Positions 56,145 to 63,797 of a DNA stretch of 64,000 nucleotides are shown here, in pieces. Numbering within the stretch: position 1 is the stretch's first letter; each line of letters starts with the position of its first letter. The stretch lies in contig JAHJLN010000057.1 of NCBI GenBank assembly GCA_018821715.1, positions 1 through 64,000 on the forward strand, in the 5' to 3' direction. The position numbers were made by a program, and so were the translations under genes. Below the pieces are notes generated by a model. The model was given only the letters and a program-made list of their open reading frames with translations, did not search any database and was not told the DNA's origin. Source of the DNA: Pseudomonadota bacterium (GTDB lineage: Bacteria; Desulfobacterota; Desulfobacteria; Desulfobacterales; Desulfobacteraceae).

Positions 56145-57206
56145 TTATTGAGCGTTATGAATTCCGACTTCTTCAAATGTTTTAATGTCTGCAAGGATTC
56201 TTGTGGAAAGATCTAAAAGTTCCATGCAGACAGCAGCGCCTGTCCCTTCTCCCAGTCTGAATTTCAGATCAATCAAGGGATCAAGACCGAGTCTTTCATG
56301 CATGAACCTGTGACCGATTTCAACGGATTTGTGGCTGACAAACAGATAATTTTTCGCTGCAGGACAAAGTTCACAGGCAATGAGCGCCCCGGCAGTGGAA
56401 ATCAAACCGTCGCAGATAACCGGGATGCCTTTGGCTGCAGCCCCCAGGACAAGACCGGCAAGTCCCCCGATTTCAAGGCCCCCGACCTTTGACAGAACAT
56501 CAATGGGGTCCCCGGGATCAGGGGTATGAAGGGCAAGCCCTTTTTTGATGACCGCAATCTTGTTTTTCAAGGTCTGGTCATCAATCCCGGTTCCGCGGCC
56601 GGTCAGTTTTTCAACTTCAATGCCGGAAAAGGCTGCAATGATGGCGGAAGACGGGGTGGTGTTGCCGATCCCCATGTCACCGGTTCCCAAAAGATCGACG
56701 GGTGCTTCTGCCTCAAGTTCGTTTACAATCTCAATCCCTGCTTCAATGGATAAAATAGCCTGGGCCCTTGTCATGGCAGGTTCTTTTGTAAAATTGGCAG
56801 TGCCGTATCGTATCTTTTTATGAAAGATGGGAAGATCAGGTTCAAAGTCATGATTTACCCCCAGATCGGCCGCTTTTACGATGGCACCGGCATGCTTTGC
56901 GATGACATTGACCGATGCCCCGTTGTTAGCGAAATTATACACCATCTGGGGGGTGACTTCAGACGGGAAAAGGCTGACGCCTTCTTCGGTCACCCCGTGG
57001 TCACCGGCACAGGTTACAATCCGTTTGTTGGAAAGATGAACATTAATGGTGCCTTTAATGGCGGCAAGCCTGGCAGAAATATCTTCCATAATTCCAAGAC
57101 TTCCGGCCGGCTTGGCCTGGTTGGCAAGCCGTTCTTTGGCTGCATGAAATGCATCTTCATTCAGTGTTTTTTTAATGGATAAAATGGTCTGGTCTAATAA
57201 TGTCAT
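56145..57206 (-). CDS. cobT: Nicotinate-nucleotide--dimethylbenzimidazole phosphoribosyltransferase
   Basis: LANQAKPAGSLGIMEDISARLAAIKG, CAGDHGVTEEGVSLFPSEVTPQMVYNF, GTGDMGIGNTTPSSAI, GLEIGGLAGLVLGAA, RLGEGTGAAVCMELLD. Confidence 0.96.
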   Translation of the reverse strand: MTLLDQTILSIKKTLNEDAFHAAKERLANQAKPAGSLGIMEDISARLAAIKGTINVHLSNKRIVTCAGDHGVTEEGVSLFPSEVTPQMVYNFANNGASVNVIAKHAGAIVKAADLGVNHDFEPDLPIFHKKIRYGTANFTKEPAMTRAQAILSIEAGIEIVNELEAEAPVDLLGTGDMGIGNTTPSSAIIAAFSGIEVEKLTGRGTGIDDQTLKNKIAVIKKGLALHTPDPGDPIDVLSKVGGLEIGGLAGLVLGAAAKGIPVICDGLISTAGALIACELCPAAKNYLFVSHKSVEIGHRFMHERLGLDPLIDLKFRLGEGTGAAVCMELLDLSTRILADIKTFEEVGIHNAQ

Positions 57207-57211
57207 AATAA

Positions 57212-58516
57212 CTACCTCTTATCTGTAATATCATTTTTAAATATTTCCATCCCTTTTTTCATGGCACAGAAATCTCCGCACATGGTGCAGGTTTCCTTTT
57301 GTAACGGCGCTTGACGCTCCCGGGTTTTTTTAGCAATCCTGGGGAATAACAGATAGGTTTCAAGATCATCCCATCTCATGTCCCGCCTTGCCATGGCAGC
57401 CTGTTTTTCATTCTCCCGACGGTCCGGGTATTTGGAAATATCCCCGATACGGACCGCAAGTCGTGTGGCCCTTACCCCTTCTCTGACATCATTGATATCC
57501 GGCAGGGCAAGATGTTCGGCAGGGGTGATATAGCAGACCAGATCCGCCCCGAATCTGGCTGAACTTGCCGCACCAATGGCAGCTGAGATATGATCGTATC
57601 CTGCACCGGTATCGCAGGGAATGGGTCCCAGGACATAGTAGGGCGCATTGCCGGACATGCGTTTTTCCAGCATGATATTGCCTTCGATTTCATCCAAGGG
57701 GACATGTCCCGGGCCTTCCACCATCATCTGGCAGCCGAGGCCCCGGCCGATTTCCGCCAGCTCGCAGTTGATGATCATTTCCGCCATCTGGGCCCGGTCA
57801 TGGCTGTCATGAATAGCGCCTGCCCTTATACCGTTACCAAGGGAGAGAACAGCATCATATTTTTTCATCAGCGCGCACACCCGGTCAAACTGCTCATACA
57901 ACGGGTTTTCTTTTTTATTGATGTCCATCCAGGCCACCATGTAAGTTCCCCCTTTGGAGGCCAGGCCCCCGTAACGGAAACCCTGTTTTCTGAGGCGTTC
58001 AATGGTGTACTGATTGATCCCGCAGTGGATTGCCATAAAACTCAACCCGTCATCCAGCTGCTTTTCGATCAGATCGAACAGGTATTCAGGATCTAATTTT
58101 GCCGGGTTTTTATATTTGCGGATGGTTTCCTTAAATGCCTGATACAGCGGCACATTACCCACGGCAAGATCGGTATGGGCAAGCACCGTTCTCCTGATCT
58201 CATCCAGGTCCCCGTCAGCAGACAATTCCATCAGGGTGTCCGCCCCTTCTTCCTGGGCAGCCCTAGCCTTTTTCACTTCAAGATCAATGTCACAGATATC
58301 CGAAGATGTACCGATGGAAGCATTGACCTTGGTTCGAAGGCCGGTTCCGATTCCAATAACAATCTGGTTTTTTCTGCTTGGATTGCAGGGAATGACGATT
58401 TCGCCTTTTGCCACGTGTTCCATGATAAAGGCTTCAGACAGTCCTTCGGATTGGGCAATGAGTTGAATTTCTTTTGTAATAGTGCCCTGGCGGGCATGTT
58501 CAAGTTGTGTTGTCAT
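57212..58516 (-). CDS. bzaF: ThiC-family radical SAM enzyme; probable 5-hydroxybenzimidazole synthase (BzaF-type) by context
   Basis: ThiC signatures (SVGNVPLYQAF-like AVGNVPLYQAF, MVEGPGHVPLDEIEGNIMLEK, LGPIPCDTGAGYDHI, CTMCGDFCAMK). Preceded by a cobalamin riboswitch and followed by cobT; a second ThiC starts at 63794. Confidence 0.8.
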   Translation of the reverse strand: MTTQLEHARQGTITKEIQLIAQSEGLSEAFIMEHVAKGEIVIPCNPSRKNQIVIGIGTGLRTKVNASIGTSSDICDIDLEVKKARAAQEEGADTLMELSADGDLDEIRRTVLAHTDLAVGNVPLYQAFKETIRKYKNPAKLDPEYLFDLIEKQLDDGLSFMAIHCGINQYTIERLRKQGFRYGGLASKGGTYMVAWMDINKKENPLYEQFDRVCALMKKYDAVLSLGNGIRAGAIHDSHDRAQMAEMIINCELAEIGRGLGCQMMVEGPGHVPLDEIEGNIMLEKRMSGNAPYYVLGPIPCDTGAGYDHISAAIGAASSARFGADLVCYITPAEHLALPDINDVREGVRATRLAVRIGDISKYPDRRENEKQAAMARRDMRWDDLETYLLFPRIAKKTRERQAPLQKETCTMCGDFCAMKKGMEIFKNDITDKR

Positions 58517-58599
58517 AGTCTCCTCGCTATCAACCCTCTTACAAAATTCAAAAAGGATTCTGTAAGAGATGAATTCTTACAAAACCCTTTACCATCGAG

Positions 58600-58775
58600 T
58601 TCCACAATGATCGTTACCTGGCTCGTCTTCTGACTTCCGGCATTAAATCTGATTTTTTTGCCTTCCCGTTTTCACAGTGGCTGTTGCAAAAAAACAGATA
58701 TTTCCGGTTACAGCGGCGGGACCGTCACGGAATTACACCGTGTTCCGTTTGCCAAGGCAACCTTAAAAATATTAA
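58600..58775 (-). ncRNA. Cobalamin (B12) riboswitch
   Basis: Minus strand: ...CGGUCCCGCCGCUGUAACCGGAAA...GCAACAGCCACUGUGAAAACGGGAAGGC...GCCGGAAGUCAGAAGACGAGCCAGGUAACGAU, matching conserved B12-riboswitch blocks. Confidence 0.9.
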
Positions 58776-58882
58776 AAACTATTTATAAGATTCAAGGAAT
58801 CAAGTCAATATCTTCTTTACAATTCTTATAGTTTATTCAATAAAGAAACGATTTCCACGGATAAGGAGAACCACTGATATCA

Positions 58883-60178
58883 ATGAAAACAAATGAACTG
58901 ACAGGCCCGCCCCTTGCAGTGGCCTGGTTTATCTGGGGCTTGGGGGCACTTTTTTATCTGGCCGGATTTTTCCAGCGGGTCGCCCCGGCCGTAATGACCC
59001 GGGAACTGATGCGCGATTTTAATATTTCTGCCTCAGGGCTGGGTCACCTGTCAGGCCTGTATTTTTATGCCTATGTGGCCATGCAGATTCCCACAGGGAT
59101 ACTGGCCGATACCCTGGGCCCTCGAAAACTTCTGACGGCCGGCTGTCTTGTGGCAGGCATGGGCACCCTTCTTTTTGCCCTGTCCCAGCAATTTTTTTGG
59201 GCCGGACTTGGCAGGTTTCTCATCGGCGGGTCTGTGGCGGTCGCTTTTGTAGGACTGCTCAAGCTGTCCTCTTCCTGGTTTCCCAAAAAAATCTATGCCT
59301 TTGTTGCTGGGAATGCCTTGTCCATCGGGCTCATTGGCGCTGTAACCGCAGGGCCGCCGTTAAGATTTCTCATGGATACGTTTTACTGGCGACAGGTTAT
59401 CAGCGTCACCGGTGCGATGACCCTTCTGCTGGGTGCCCTGATCTGGTTTATTGTCAGGGACTGGCCGCAGGAGAAAGGGTATCCCGGGTTTACGCAAAAA
59501 ATTCCCTTGCCAGCGGTATTATCAGTTGCCGGCATCCGGCATGGACTTTTCACGGTGTTAACATATCGAAATACCTGGCTTTTGTTTGTTATTCCTGGTG
59601 GGATTGTCGGGTGCATCCTCACCTTTTCCGGTCTGTGGGGCGTGCCCTATCTTATTTCCCACCACAGTTTAAGCCCGGTCAGGGCAGCGTCCTTAAGTTC
59701 TGTGCTGCTCGTTGCCTGGGCCCTGGGAGCGCCTTTTTTCGGATGGGTGTCCGACCGGATGGGAAAACGAAAACCGTTGTATATTGCAGGAAGCACAGTG
59801 GTTGCCCTGGGATGGGCATTGATCCTGTTCCAGGAAAATCTTTCTTTTTCTCAACTGGTCATGGCTTTTTTTGTTACCGGTTTTTGTTCCGGCTGTATGA
59901 TCGTCAGTTTTGCTTTTGTTGCGGAATCGGTTCCCGCATCCCTGTCCGGAACCGTCTCCGGTTTGACCAACATGGGGGTGATGATGGGCCCGATGTTACT
60001 CCAGCCGATTGTGGGCCGGATTCTGGACAGCAATTGGACAGGCCAGATGGTCAACGGGGTAAGGGTCTATTCCCTTGATGCCTACGAATACGGGTTTATA
60101 CCCATGATCGCTTGGGTTTTTTTATCTGTCCTGCTCCTGTTTTTTACCAAAGAAACCCACTGTCGTCAGATGACCTGA
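58883..60178 (+). CDS. MFS transporter
   Basis: 12-TM pattern; SGLGHLSGLYFYAYVAMQIPTGILADTLGPRKLLTAGCLVAGMGTLLFAL; GWVSDRMGKRKPLY. Confidence 0.9.
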   Translation: MKTNELTGPPLAVAWFIWGLGALFYLAGFFQRVAPAVMTRELMRDFNISASGLGHLSGLYFYAYVAMQIPTGILADTLGPRKLLTAGCLVAGMGTLLFALSQQFFWAGLGRFLIGGSVAVAFVGLLKLSSSWFPKKIYAFVAGNALSIGLIGAVTAGPPLRFLMDTFYWRQVISVTGAMTLLLGALIWFIVRDWPQEKGYPGFTQKIPLPAVLSVAGIRHGLFTVLTYRNTWLLFVIPGGIVGCILTFSGLWGVPYLISHHSLSPVRAASLSSVLLVAWALGAPFFGWVSDRMGKRKPLYIAGSTVVALGWALILFQENLSFSQLVMAFFVTGFCSGCMIVSFAFVAESVPASLSGTVSGLTNMGVMMGPMLLQPIVGRILDSNWTGQMVNGVRVYSLDAYEYGFIPMIAWVFLSVLLLFFTKETHCRQMT

Positions 60179-60319
60179 GCAAAAAGACGAGGACCATTGA
60201 TAGCGCTTTCACTTTCAGGCGTATGGATAATCCAGAAGGCACGGGATTAACCCTGAGAATTTTTTTAGAATTATATTGACAAACCCGACCCGGTTTAAGT
60301 AGTAAGGCAACAGTTAGTT

Positions 60320-60409
60320 CACTGGGGGTGCTTTTCTTAAAAAGCTGAGAGAAGTTGAAAACTTCAACCCTTGGAACCTGATACGGTTAGTACCGGCGTA
60401 GGGAAAGTG
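60320..60409 (+). ncRNA. TPP (THI-box) riboswitch
   Basis: CUGGGGGUGC...AAGCUGAGAGAAG...ACCCUUGGAACCUGAUACGGUUAGUACCGGCGUAGGGAAAGUG, canonical THI element. Confidence 0.96.
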
Positions 60410-60516
60410 TATGAAACATCCAGTTCGTTTATTTCTTATCTTTTCTTTATATTCCGAAAATCTAATATCACCGTTCAGGAACCATGACATTTTATGGGTA
60501 ATGGTATGGAGGTTTT

Positions 60517-60714
60517 ATGAACATACGCTTGAACGGCAAACAAGTGGCATCAAAAAGCCGGACCCTGATGGACCTTGTCCTGGAAAAGGGATTTGATCCA
60601 GACGCTTTGATTGCCGAGGTCAATTTTAAAGTGATCCGGCAGGAGATCTGGAAAGAGGTTGCCATAAGAGAAGGCGATATAATTGAGTTATTAAGTTTTG
60701 TGGGGGGAGGATAA
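60517..60714 (+). CDS. thiS: Sulfur carrier protein ThiS
   Basis: 65 aa, MNIRLNGKQ...VIRQEIWKEVAIREGDIIELLSFVGGG* with terminal GG. Confidence 0.95.
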   Translation: MNIRLNGKQVASKSRTLMDLVLEKGFDPDALIAEVNFKVIRQEIWKEVAIREGDIIELLSFVGGG

Positions 60715-61497
60715 ATGACGGATATTCAAAAGGATACGCTCATCCTGGGCAAGGTTGAATTTACAAGTCGCCTGTTCACCGGGACAGGCAAATTTGCCTC
60801 CAGGCAGCTGATTGCGCCCATGCTTGAGGCAAGCGGGTCCCAGTTGATCACCATTGCACTTCGACGGGTGGACTCTGATTCAAAAAATGAAAACATATTA
60901 AATGACATCCCGGATTCAGTTGTTCTGCTGCCCAATACCTCAGGGGCCAGAACGGCAGATGAAGCCGTTCGTATCGCAAGGATCGCAAGGGAAGCCGGAT
61001 GCGGTGATTTCATTAAAATAGAGGTGATCACAGACATGAGATACCTGCTGCCGGATAATCATGAAACCCTCAAGGCCACCCGGATCCTGGCAAAGGAAGG
61101 ATTTGTGGTTCTTCCCTATATGATGCCGGATATTACCGTGACCCGACAGCTCTATGATGCCGGTGCCGCCGCCGTCATGCCCCTTGGTTCACCCATCGGA
61201 ACCAACCGGGGACTTGAAACAAAGCCCTTGATCCAGATGATGATCGAGGTAAGTAAACTCCCCGTGGTGGTGGATGCCGGTATCGGCAGGCCGTCCCAGG
61301 CAGCGGAAGCCATGGAAATGGGCGCGGATGCGGTCCTTGTCAATACAGCGATTGCCACAAGCAAGGATCCTGTCCTGGCAGGAAAAGCATTTTCTCTGGC
61401 AGTAAAAGCCGGCAGAATGGCCTATCTTTCCAACATGGCGGATAAAAACGATCATGCCCGTGCCTCTTCGCCCCTTACCGGGTTTTTAAGGGAGTAA
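60715..61497 (+). CDS. thiG: Thiazole synthase
   Basis: [80 protein letters not shown]. Confidence 0.97.
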
Positions 61498-61500
61498 AAA

Positions 61501-62610
61501 ATGTCTTTTATGAACACGGTCACCCGGTTTGAATTCTTTGATTTTAACGGATATTTCAAGGCCGTTACGAATGCGGATATCCAAACGTCTTTGAACCGGG
61601 ACCATCTTGACACGTATGATCTTCTCAACCTCTTATCCCAGCCTGCCCAGGATTTTTTAGAACCCATGGCCCAAAAAGCTCAGAAAATAACCCTTCAGTA
61701 TTTCGGCAGAACCATCGGGCTTTATGCCCCCTTGTATATTTCAGATTATTGCTCCAATCACTGCACCTATTGCGGGTTTAACCAGGCAACCAATTTTAAG
61801 AGAACCCAATTGACCCTGGACCAGATCGAGCAGGAGGCAAAGGTGATTTCAGATATGGGTATCCGGCATATCCTTGTTTTAACCGGTGAAGCACCGGCCA
61901 AAACGCCTCTGTCTTATCTTGAAGATGCTGTCAGAATTTTAAAGCAATATTTTTCATCCATTGCTCTTGAGATATTTCCCATGGATGAAGAGGCCTATCG
62001 CAGCCTTAAAAATGCCGGTGCCGACTCTTTGACGGTCTACCAGGAAGTCTATGATCAAAAGATTTACAAAGAGGTCCATCCAAAAGGGAAAAAAGCCAAC
62101 TACCTGTATCGGCTGTTAACCCCTGAACGGGCGGCAAAGGCAGGGTTCAGGGCCATCAATATCGGGACATTGTTCGGCCTTGGAGAACCAGGATCAGAAG
62201 CGTTTATGGCAGGACTCCATGCAAAATATCTGGAGCAGGAGTTCCCGGATGTGGAGCTTTCCCTGTCCCTTCCCAGAATGACAAAGGCAGCCGGCGGGAT
62301 TGAACCGAAAAATGTGCTGTCGGATATCCGGTTTGTCCAGTTCATGCTGGCCTGGCGGCTGTTTATGCCAAGACTCGGGATCACCATATCCACAAGAGAG
62401 TCTGCCGCTTTCAGGGATAAACTTATTCACCTGGGCGCTACCCGGTATTCGGCAGGATCAAAAACCGATGTGGGCGGATACGCCTTAAAAGCCGATGATG
62501 CAACGGTTCAGTTTGAGGTTACGGACAAAAGAAGCGTGGCTGAAATAACCCAAATGATCCGGGAAAAAGGGTATCAGCCGATTTTTAAAGACTGGGAGAT
62601 GATGGAATGA
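61501..62610 (+). CDS. thiH: 2-iminoacetate synthase
   Basis: LYISDYCSNHCTYCGFNQ radical SAM motif; LVLTGEAP; AINIGTLFGLGE; YSAGSKTDVGGYAL. Confidence 0.96.
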   Translation: MSFMNTVTRFEFFDFNGYFKAVTNADIQTSLNRDHLDTYDLLNLLSQPAQDFLEPMAQKAQKITLQYFGRTIGLYAPLYISDYCSNHCTYCGFNQATNFKRTQLTLDQIEQEAKVISDMGIRHILVLTGEAPAKTPLSYLEDAVRILKQYFSSIALEIFPMDEEAYRSLKNAGADSLTVYQEVYDQKIYKEVHPKGKKANYLYRLLTPERAAKAGFRAINIGTLFGLGEPGSEAFMAGLHAKYLEQEFPDVELSLSLPRMTKAAGGIEPKNVLSDIRFVQFMLAWRLFMPRLGITISTRESAAFRDKLIHLGATRYSAGSKTDVGGYALKADDATVQFEVTDKRSVAEITQMIREKGYQPIFKDWEMME

Positions 62611-63797
62611 AAATAGGGATAGCAGGGATCGGCGGGATTGGCTCCAATGTGGCAAGACATCTTGCCCAGGCAGGCGTAAGACAGATCCGGATCGTGGATC
62701 ATGACCGGGTTGAAGCCTTAAATTTGAACCGTCAGTTTTATGGATTTTCCCAGGTTGGGGAAAAAAAGACCGACAGCCTGGAAAAAAATCTTAAACAAAT
62801 TTTCCCGGACATGGATATTGAAAAAATAGATCAGAAAATTGAACCCGGCGATGCAGGCGTTCTTTTTTCAGACTGCAGTATTGTCGTGGAAGGGTTTGAT
62901 AATAAAACCTTAAAGAAAATGATCATTGAAGACCTTAGTGGAACCAACAAGGTTGTTGTGTCAGCTTCCGGCATTGCCGGGAAAAATATGGCGGCTGTTA
63001 CAACCAGAAAAATGGGCAATTGCCGCATTGTCGGGGATTTTGTGTCGGATCAGACAGACCATGAACTTTTCCCGCCCAAAGTTGCCATGGTGGCCGCCGT
63101 CATGGCAGGGATGGTGTTGCGGCACATGGGCAAAGAAGCACCTGAATTCAAGCCTCTTTCCCCCCGCAGGCTTCCCCACGGGATCTACGGTATTTTAGGT
63201 GAAAAATTTTCTCTTGGCCGAACCAATGCGGATGTGGCAAGACAGATGGTGGCTGCCGGCATTGATGTTCTCCAGTACCGGGAAAAATTAAAGGACAAAA
63301 GCCTTAAGCAAATGTTGGAGGAGTGCCTTGAAATCCGGGAAATAACCCGGGATGCAGGAGTTCCCTTTATTATCAATGATCATGTCGACATTGCCCTGAT
63401 GGTGGGTGCTGACGGTATTCACCAGGGCCAGGACGATCTTCCCGTAAGCCACCTCCGGCGGATCGCCCCGGATATGATGATCGGGTGTTCCACCCATTCA
63501 CCGGACCAGGCCAGAAAAGCTTTGGCAGACGGTGCGGATTACATTGGCGTGGGGCCCATATTTCCCACCCAAACCAAAGAGGATGTCTGCGATGCAGTGG
63601 GGCTTGAATATCTTGAACAGGTAGTGAAAACTCATGATATCCCCTTTGTTGCCATTGGCGGCATTAAACGGCATAACTTAAGGGATGTCCTTTCAAGGGG
63701 TGCTAAAACCGTATGCCTGGTCACTGAAATCATCGGCGCCAGGGATATTGAAAAAAGAATCAGGGAAATCAAACAGATATTAGGAGAATTTAAATGA
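62607..63797 (+). CDS. thiF/thiE: ThiF-ThiE fusion (sulfur carrier adenylyltransferase plus thiamine-phosphate synthase)
   Basis: N-terminal [42 protein letters not shown] (E1-like) joined to C-terminal [23 protein letters not shown]...[26 protein letters not shown]...[16 protein letters not shown]...VAIGGI. Confidence 0.93.

Follow-up and report, generated by a model that had tools for sequence, protein, structure and literature searches.

What does a bacterium of the sulfate-reducer type do with a second ThiC-family gene that sits behind a cobalamin riboswitch and next to cobT, a few kilobases from a thiamin operon with a thiC of its own? The question arises in the first 64,000 nucleotides of contig JAHJLN010000057.1 (hereafter the window, meaning this whole stretch), which belongs to a metagenome-assembled genome of the Desulfobacteraceae. 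Based on phylogeny, substitutions at two catalytic positions, riboswitch type, linkage to cobT, and synteny with published bzaF loci, we identify the gene, with a probability of about 0.92, as bzaF, encoding a radical SAM enzyme paralogous to ThiC and predicted to convert 5-aminoimidazole ribotide (AIR) anaerobically to 5-hydroxybenzimidazole; a preliminary description of this locus had proposed the same identity. The features of the window that bear on this assignment are the following:

56145..57206, minus strand: cobT, nicotinate-nucleotide:benzimidazole phosphoribosyltransferase (TIGR03160, 422 bits)
57212..58516, minus strand: bzaF, ThiC-family radical SAM enzyme, 434 aa, predicted 5-hydroxybenzimidazole (5-OHBza) synthase acting on AIR
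58552..58590, minus strand: predicted intrinsic terminator between the aptamer and the bzaF start (16 pairs, then a T-rich tail)
58603..58780, minus strand: aptamer of the cobalamin riboswitch that controls bzaF-cobT (full-length match to RF00174, positions 1-189, at 85.8 bits)
58883..60178, plus strand: MFS transporter, divergent from bzaF
60314..60422, plus strand: TPP riboswitch of the thi operon (RF00059, 78.4 bits), which serves as a contrast control
60517..63797, plus strand: thiS-thiG-thiH-thiFE, upstream of the true thiC (ThiG, PF05690, 340 bits; thiS from its position and GG C-terminus only)
from 63794, past the window edge, plus strand: true thiC, 427 aa, complete on the contig

The window bzaF protein matches the PF01964 profile at 560 bits, and a profile search of the 5.73-Mb genome returned exactly two PF01964 genes, bzaF and thiC, so that the predicted synthase is a single gene with no bzaA/bzaB pair. 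The genome has a single PF02277 gene, this cobT, which starts 5 nt 3' of the bzaF stop. In the leader, the aptamer scores well above the RF00174 gathering score of 31.5 (E = 9.5e-20), and the terminator stem is likely the expression platform of the riboswitch; two terminator-like sites were found in a 421-nt stretch vs. 0.3 expected, and the leader fold beats all 200 shuffles (z = -4.1). The riboswitch, the adjoining cobT, and a second ThiC starting at 63794 in a TPP-riboswitch thi operon had all been described from the sequence, and each was recovered by its model; the span first given for the locus, 57212-58775, does contain the gene plus its riboswitch, with the 5' end of the aptamer now placed at 58780. 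The TPP riboswitch is divergent from bzaF, lies past the MFS transporter, and is followed by thiS-like, thiG, thiH, thiF-thiE, and thiC genes. Here the ThiF-ThiE fusion is one 396-aa protein (62607-63797, plus strand), an arrangement also seen in relatives (e.g. L030, L016, L066), with separate pieces apparent in others. The MFS transporter shares 30% identity over 422 aa with one (L171:8382-9656) that stands first in a bzaC-bzaD operon of genome G032, an association that is no more than suggestive.

This organization recurs across relatives. Each of the 23 named loci that were scanned has a cobalamin riboswitch 5' of bzaF, mostly no more than about 500 nt away (in L135 the distance is 1.4 kb), and in none of the 23 does a TPP riboswitch read into bzaF. 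Six close relatives carry a divergent TPP riboswitch 2-4 kb away, indicating that the bzaF/thi arrangement is conserved. Where a bzaF was called, cobT is part of the locus in 54 of 72 named cases, nearly always directly 3' of bzaF, and several of the remaining loci are contig ends. Desulfobacula MAGs, at 90% identity, and Desulfospira joergensenii, at 86%, are the closest relatives that bear names.

Phylogenetically, the window protein falls outside ThiC. In a tree of 113 non-redundant rows, 82 BzaF-like rows including the window protein are separated from 31 ThiC rows (E. coli ThiC among them) by a branch of length 2.1 with a support of 100; such a phylogeny was among the checks that the preliminary description had named. 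While the groups in this tree were labelled by the two residues discussed below, the identity listing gives the same split with no exception: identity to the window protein is at least 57% inside the clade and at most 47% for ThiC, with no sequence between 47 and 57%. Likewise, matches to the window protein across 345 genomes of the phylum form two sets, one at 58-79% (about 70 genomes, with which a contig-edge fragment at 66% belongs) and one at 48% or less.

The clade is tied to characterized enzymes, i.e., the hydroxybenzimidazole synthases of Geobacter/Desulfuromonas (GSU3005 of G. sulfurreducens, Geob_0543 of Geotalea daltonii; PMC7726332, PMC13119186), via synteny and not via named sequences. 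One member, L178, has HMM-confirmed cobU, cobT, cobS, cbiA, and bzaF in consecutive order, which is the order published for the G. daltonii locus (PMC13119186), except that the cobC also present in the latter was not seen at L178. The window bzaF protein is 63-65% identical to genes in this Geotalea-type arrangement and resembles the Geobacter/Desulfuromonas BzaF in being a ThiC-family single-gene synthase of Desulfobacterota encoded next to cob genes, with cobalamin control near the locus (PMC7726332, PMC13119186). Those genes lie beside cbiA and close a cob operon; the window gene directly adjoins cobT and has its own riboswitch.

Six sequences at 57-60% identity (L217, L219, L224, L225, L226, L232) form a deep branch of the BzaF clade that keeps a ThiC-like SRGG motif alongside the BzaF two-residue signature (S67/N228), and their function may differ. 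MAGs labelled Planctomycetota, Lentisphaerota, and Kiritimatiellota (L127, L129, L130, L135, L082) encode bzaF, mostly with cobT, nested among Desulfobacterota genes, by horizontal transfer or misbinning. A contig filed as viral (L032, IMGVR_UViG_3300027985_001953) carries a bzaF 87% identical to that of the window and is probably host DNA. Finally, the ThiC-family proteins of L017 and L019 lie on long branches and carry a CSMCGEWC motif; their genomes (G037 and G033) have neither a second ThiC-family copy nor a full-length ThiG match.

The two paralogs differ systematically in the active site. Mapping by alignment to PDB structures places Asn228 and Asp383 of AtThiC at Ser67 and Asn228 of the window protein, which thus lacks the Asn-Asp pair that marks ThiC. 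All 157 BzaF-clade sequences (repeat fetches included) have Ser and Asn at these positions, where each of the 36 ThiC sequences has Asn and Asp. Unchanged across BzaF and ThiC are Glu422, Cys474 of CcThiC, the histidines of EGPGH and PxEH, and the three cluster cysteines, the latter being C410, C413, and C417 in the C410-x2-C413-x3-C417 motif of the window protein. The spacing of this motif (CX2CX3C vs. CX2CX4C) was rejected as a mark of BzaF, since the short form also occurs in ThiCs of this phylum. An AlphaFold model of the window protein, with low local confidence around residues 232-235, aligns to AIR-bound AtThiC (4S28) with a TM of 0.91; the protein is comparable to ThiC (AtThiC 4S28, CcThiC 3EPM) in predicted fold, AIR-site Glu and Cys, and cluster cysteines, but differs in the N228S and D383N equivalents, in its cobalamin control, and in an identity of 34-41%.

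Published mutants suggest what these substitutions could mean. In AtThiC, Asn228 binds the 3' hydroxyl and Asp383 is the proposed proton donor to N3 of the aminoimidazole in radical addition; D383A and N228D yield no HMP-P, and D383N only a partial rescue (PMC11117688). An enzyme that builds a benzene ring onto an intact imidazole would need no acid for ring expansion, and the N-to-S and D-to-N swaps may be part of the change by which a ThiC ancestor moved from ring expansion to ring annulation. Within the examined set, the two-residue signature tells the paralogs apart in every case, and it points to mutants with which this evolution could be tested.

In the proposed pathway, for which we infer enzyme activity, step order, and final ligand, BzaF would convert AIR to 5-hydroxybenzimidazole anaerobically, and the co-transcribed CobT would activate the base so that it can be joined to the corrin ring. 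Plentiful cobamide would turn the operon off through the cobalamin riboswitch, probably via the terminator. The base is probably not left as it is, because a second operon encodes candidate tailoring enzymes. Among the eight cobalamin riboswitches of the genome, one heads an operon on contig 275 in which a sodium:solute symporter (SSF), BzaC-DUF2284, BzaD-like, and BzaE-like genes follow on the same strand, the last three abutting:

L168:6685-8220 (contig 275): BzaC-like O-methyltransferase fused to DUF2284 (PF00891 plus DUF2284)
L168:8262-9821 (contig 275): sodium:solute symporter, first gene after the riboswitch of the bzaCDE operon

The BzaC-like protein scores 282.7 bits against an alignment of the methyltransferases encoded after bzaF-cobT. 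The BzaD-like protein is the best TIGR04385 match in the genome and full length, at 424 bits vs. a cut-off of 450, and the BzaE-like protein is a B12-binding/radical SAM ORF that overlaps bzaD and is 54% identical to its L115 counterpart. The BzaC and BzaE calls rely on operon position and on similarity to operons of the bzaF-cobT-bzaC-bzaD type, not on a curated model; in three such loci (L112, L115, L128), genes related to the contig-275 set directly follow bzaF-cobT. DUF2284 is a predicted metal-binding domain, and its fusion to BzaC also occurs in congeners and in L112, L115, L128, and L135, other loci being unfused. No counterpart of the symporter turned up in the other bza loci that were fetched; this protein may serve to import a corrinoid or base precursor. 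In pathway logic, cobT linkage, and probably the types of downstream genes in the genome, this system resembles the bzaAB-cobT-bzaC(-bzaD-bzaE) operons of Moorella, Eubacterium limosum, and Acetobacterium (PMC8123684), from which it differs by bzaF in place of bzaA and bzaB, by bzaC-, bzaD-, and bzaE-like genes forming a separate riboswitch operon, and by the fusion of the BzaC-like protein to DUF2284.

The preliminary description had called for a search for further bza genes, which this operon answers, and had described 5-hydroxybenzimidazole as made for the lower ligand. With bzaC-, bzaD-, and bzaE-like genes on contig 275, that compound stands as the predicted product of BzaF but probably serves as an intermediate, which BzaC, BzaD, and BzaE probably O-methylate and C-methylate to 5,6-dimethylbenzimidazole (DMB). 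BluB, an alternative source of DMB, was rejected: matches in the genome are all sub-threshold, the best at 34 bits vs. a cut-off of 150. CbiD, CbiK, and CbiL are present. Together, the tailoring genes and the lack of a confirmed bluB make DMB, and hence true cobalamin, the probable final ligand as judged from gene content.

It is less likely that BzaF acts as proposed and the final ligand is 5-hydroxybenzimidazole itself (factor III), with the contig-275 genes otherwise employed or contaminants. The genome is a MAG with 5.85% contamination and contig 275 could be foreign, although its GC content agrees with that of the genome (42.6 vs. 43.9%) and its closest relatives are congeners. In addition, the closed congener G008 has bzaF-cobT and the riboswitch but lacks comparably strong matches to BzaC or BzaD. 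Against this, the contig-275 operon is itself under cobalamin-riboswitch control, its BzaD reaches the 424 bits given above, and closely related operons are present in four congeners (G002, G005, G014, and G020). Since comparable BzaC or BzaD matches are also lacking in congener G017, as in G008, the lower ligand probably differs within the genus. Beyond it, Desulfogranum mediterraneum (G125, L110) combines bzaF and a strong BzaC with no comparable BzaD match, which suggests 5-methoxybenzimidazole as its ligand.

That the gene is instead a second true ThiC (HMP-P synthase), under cobalamin control by chance, is very improbable. Its modelled fold is that of ThiC, and it passes the cut-offs of the ThiC models NF009895 (550 bits) and TIGR00190 (490); yet these models also score the synteny-anchored BzaF of L178 (594 and 553) and are therefore non-discriminating. 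NCBIfam, which has no BzaF model, was for this reason set aside as a discriminator. The separate clade, the substitutions at two catalytic positions, the cobT linkage, and a dedicated thiC in the same genome all argue against a second ThiC, as does the regulatory context, the TPP riboswitch being that of the divergent thi operon. So does the distribution of thiamin genes: within the genus, every one of 23 genomes has either both thiC and thiG (8) or neither (15; p = 2e-6, counting the partial thiG of G003 as present), thiG shows no significant dependence on bzaF in the same 23 genomes (p = 0.18), and the congeners with bzaF and no thiC (G013, G016, G017, G020) lack thiG. One genome from another part of the phylum, G336, is an exception, with ThiG and bzaF and no thiC. 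Equally improbable is that the protein is one half of a two-protein BzaA/BzaB hydroxybenzimidazole synthase, as its 482-bit match to the BzaB model TIGR04386 is below the 700-bit cut-off and exceeded by that of the true thiC (523), and the genome has no third ThiC-family gene as a partner. A single homologue scan across genome contigs returned close relatives only (at least 74% identity) and no BzaA/BzaB reference.

While bzaF in Desulfobacterota has already been published, the bzaF assignment made here adds a residue signature, a split into core and tailoring modules, and the misnaming of the gene by curated models. A broader reading, which we offer tentatively, is that sulfate reducers combine a fixed bzaF-cobT core with a tailoring module (DUF2284-fused BzaC, BzaD, and BzaE, under a separate riboswitch and in some cases with a transporter) that can be gained or lost, that species of one genus may thereby make different cobamides, and that the residue swaps were part of the change from ThiC to BzaF. 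One version of the module may make 5-methylbenzimidazole, for which we know of no gene set. This base is reported from some sulfate reducers, according to the title of Kraeutler 1988 as cited in PMC4303638. Because curated models name bzaF as thiC, it is easy to overlook producers of B12 ligands among sulfate reducers and to count too many thiamin prototrophs. Anaerobic communities are shaped by which organisms produce true vitamin B12 and which produce variants that are of no use to other microbes.
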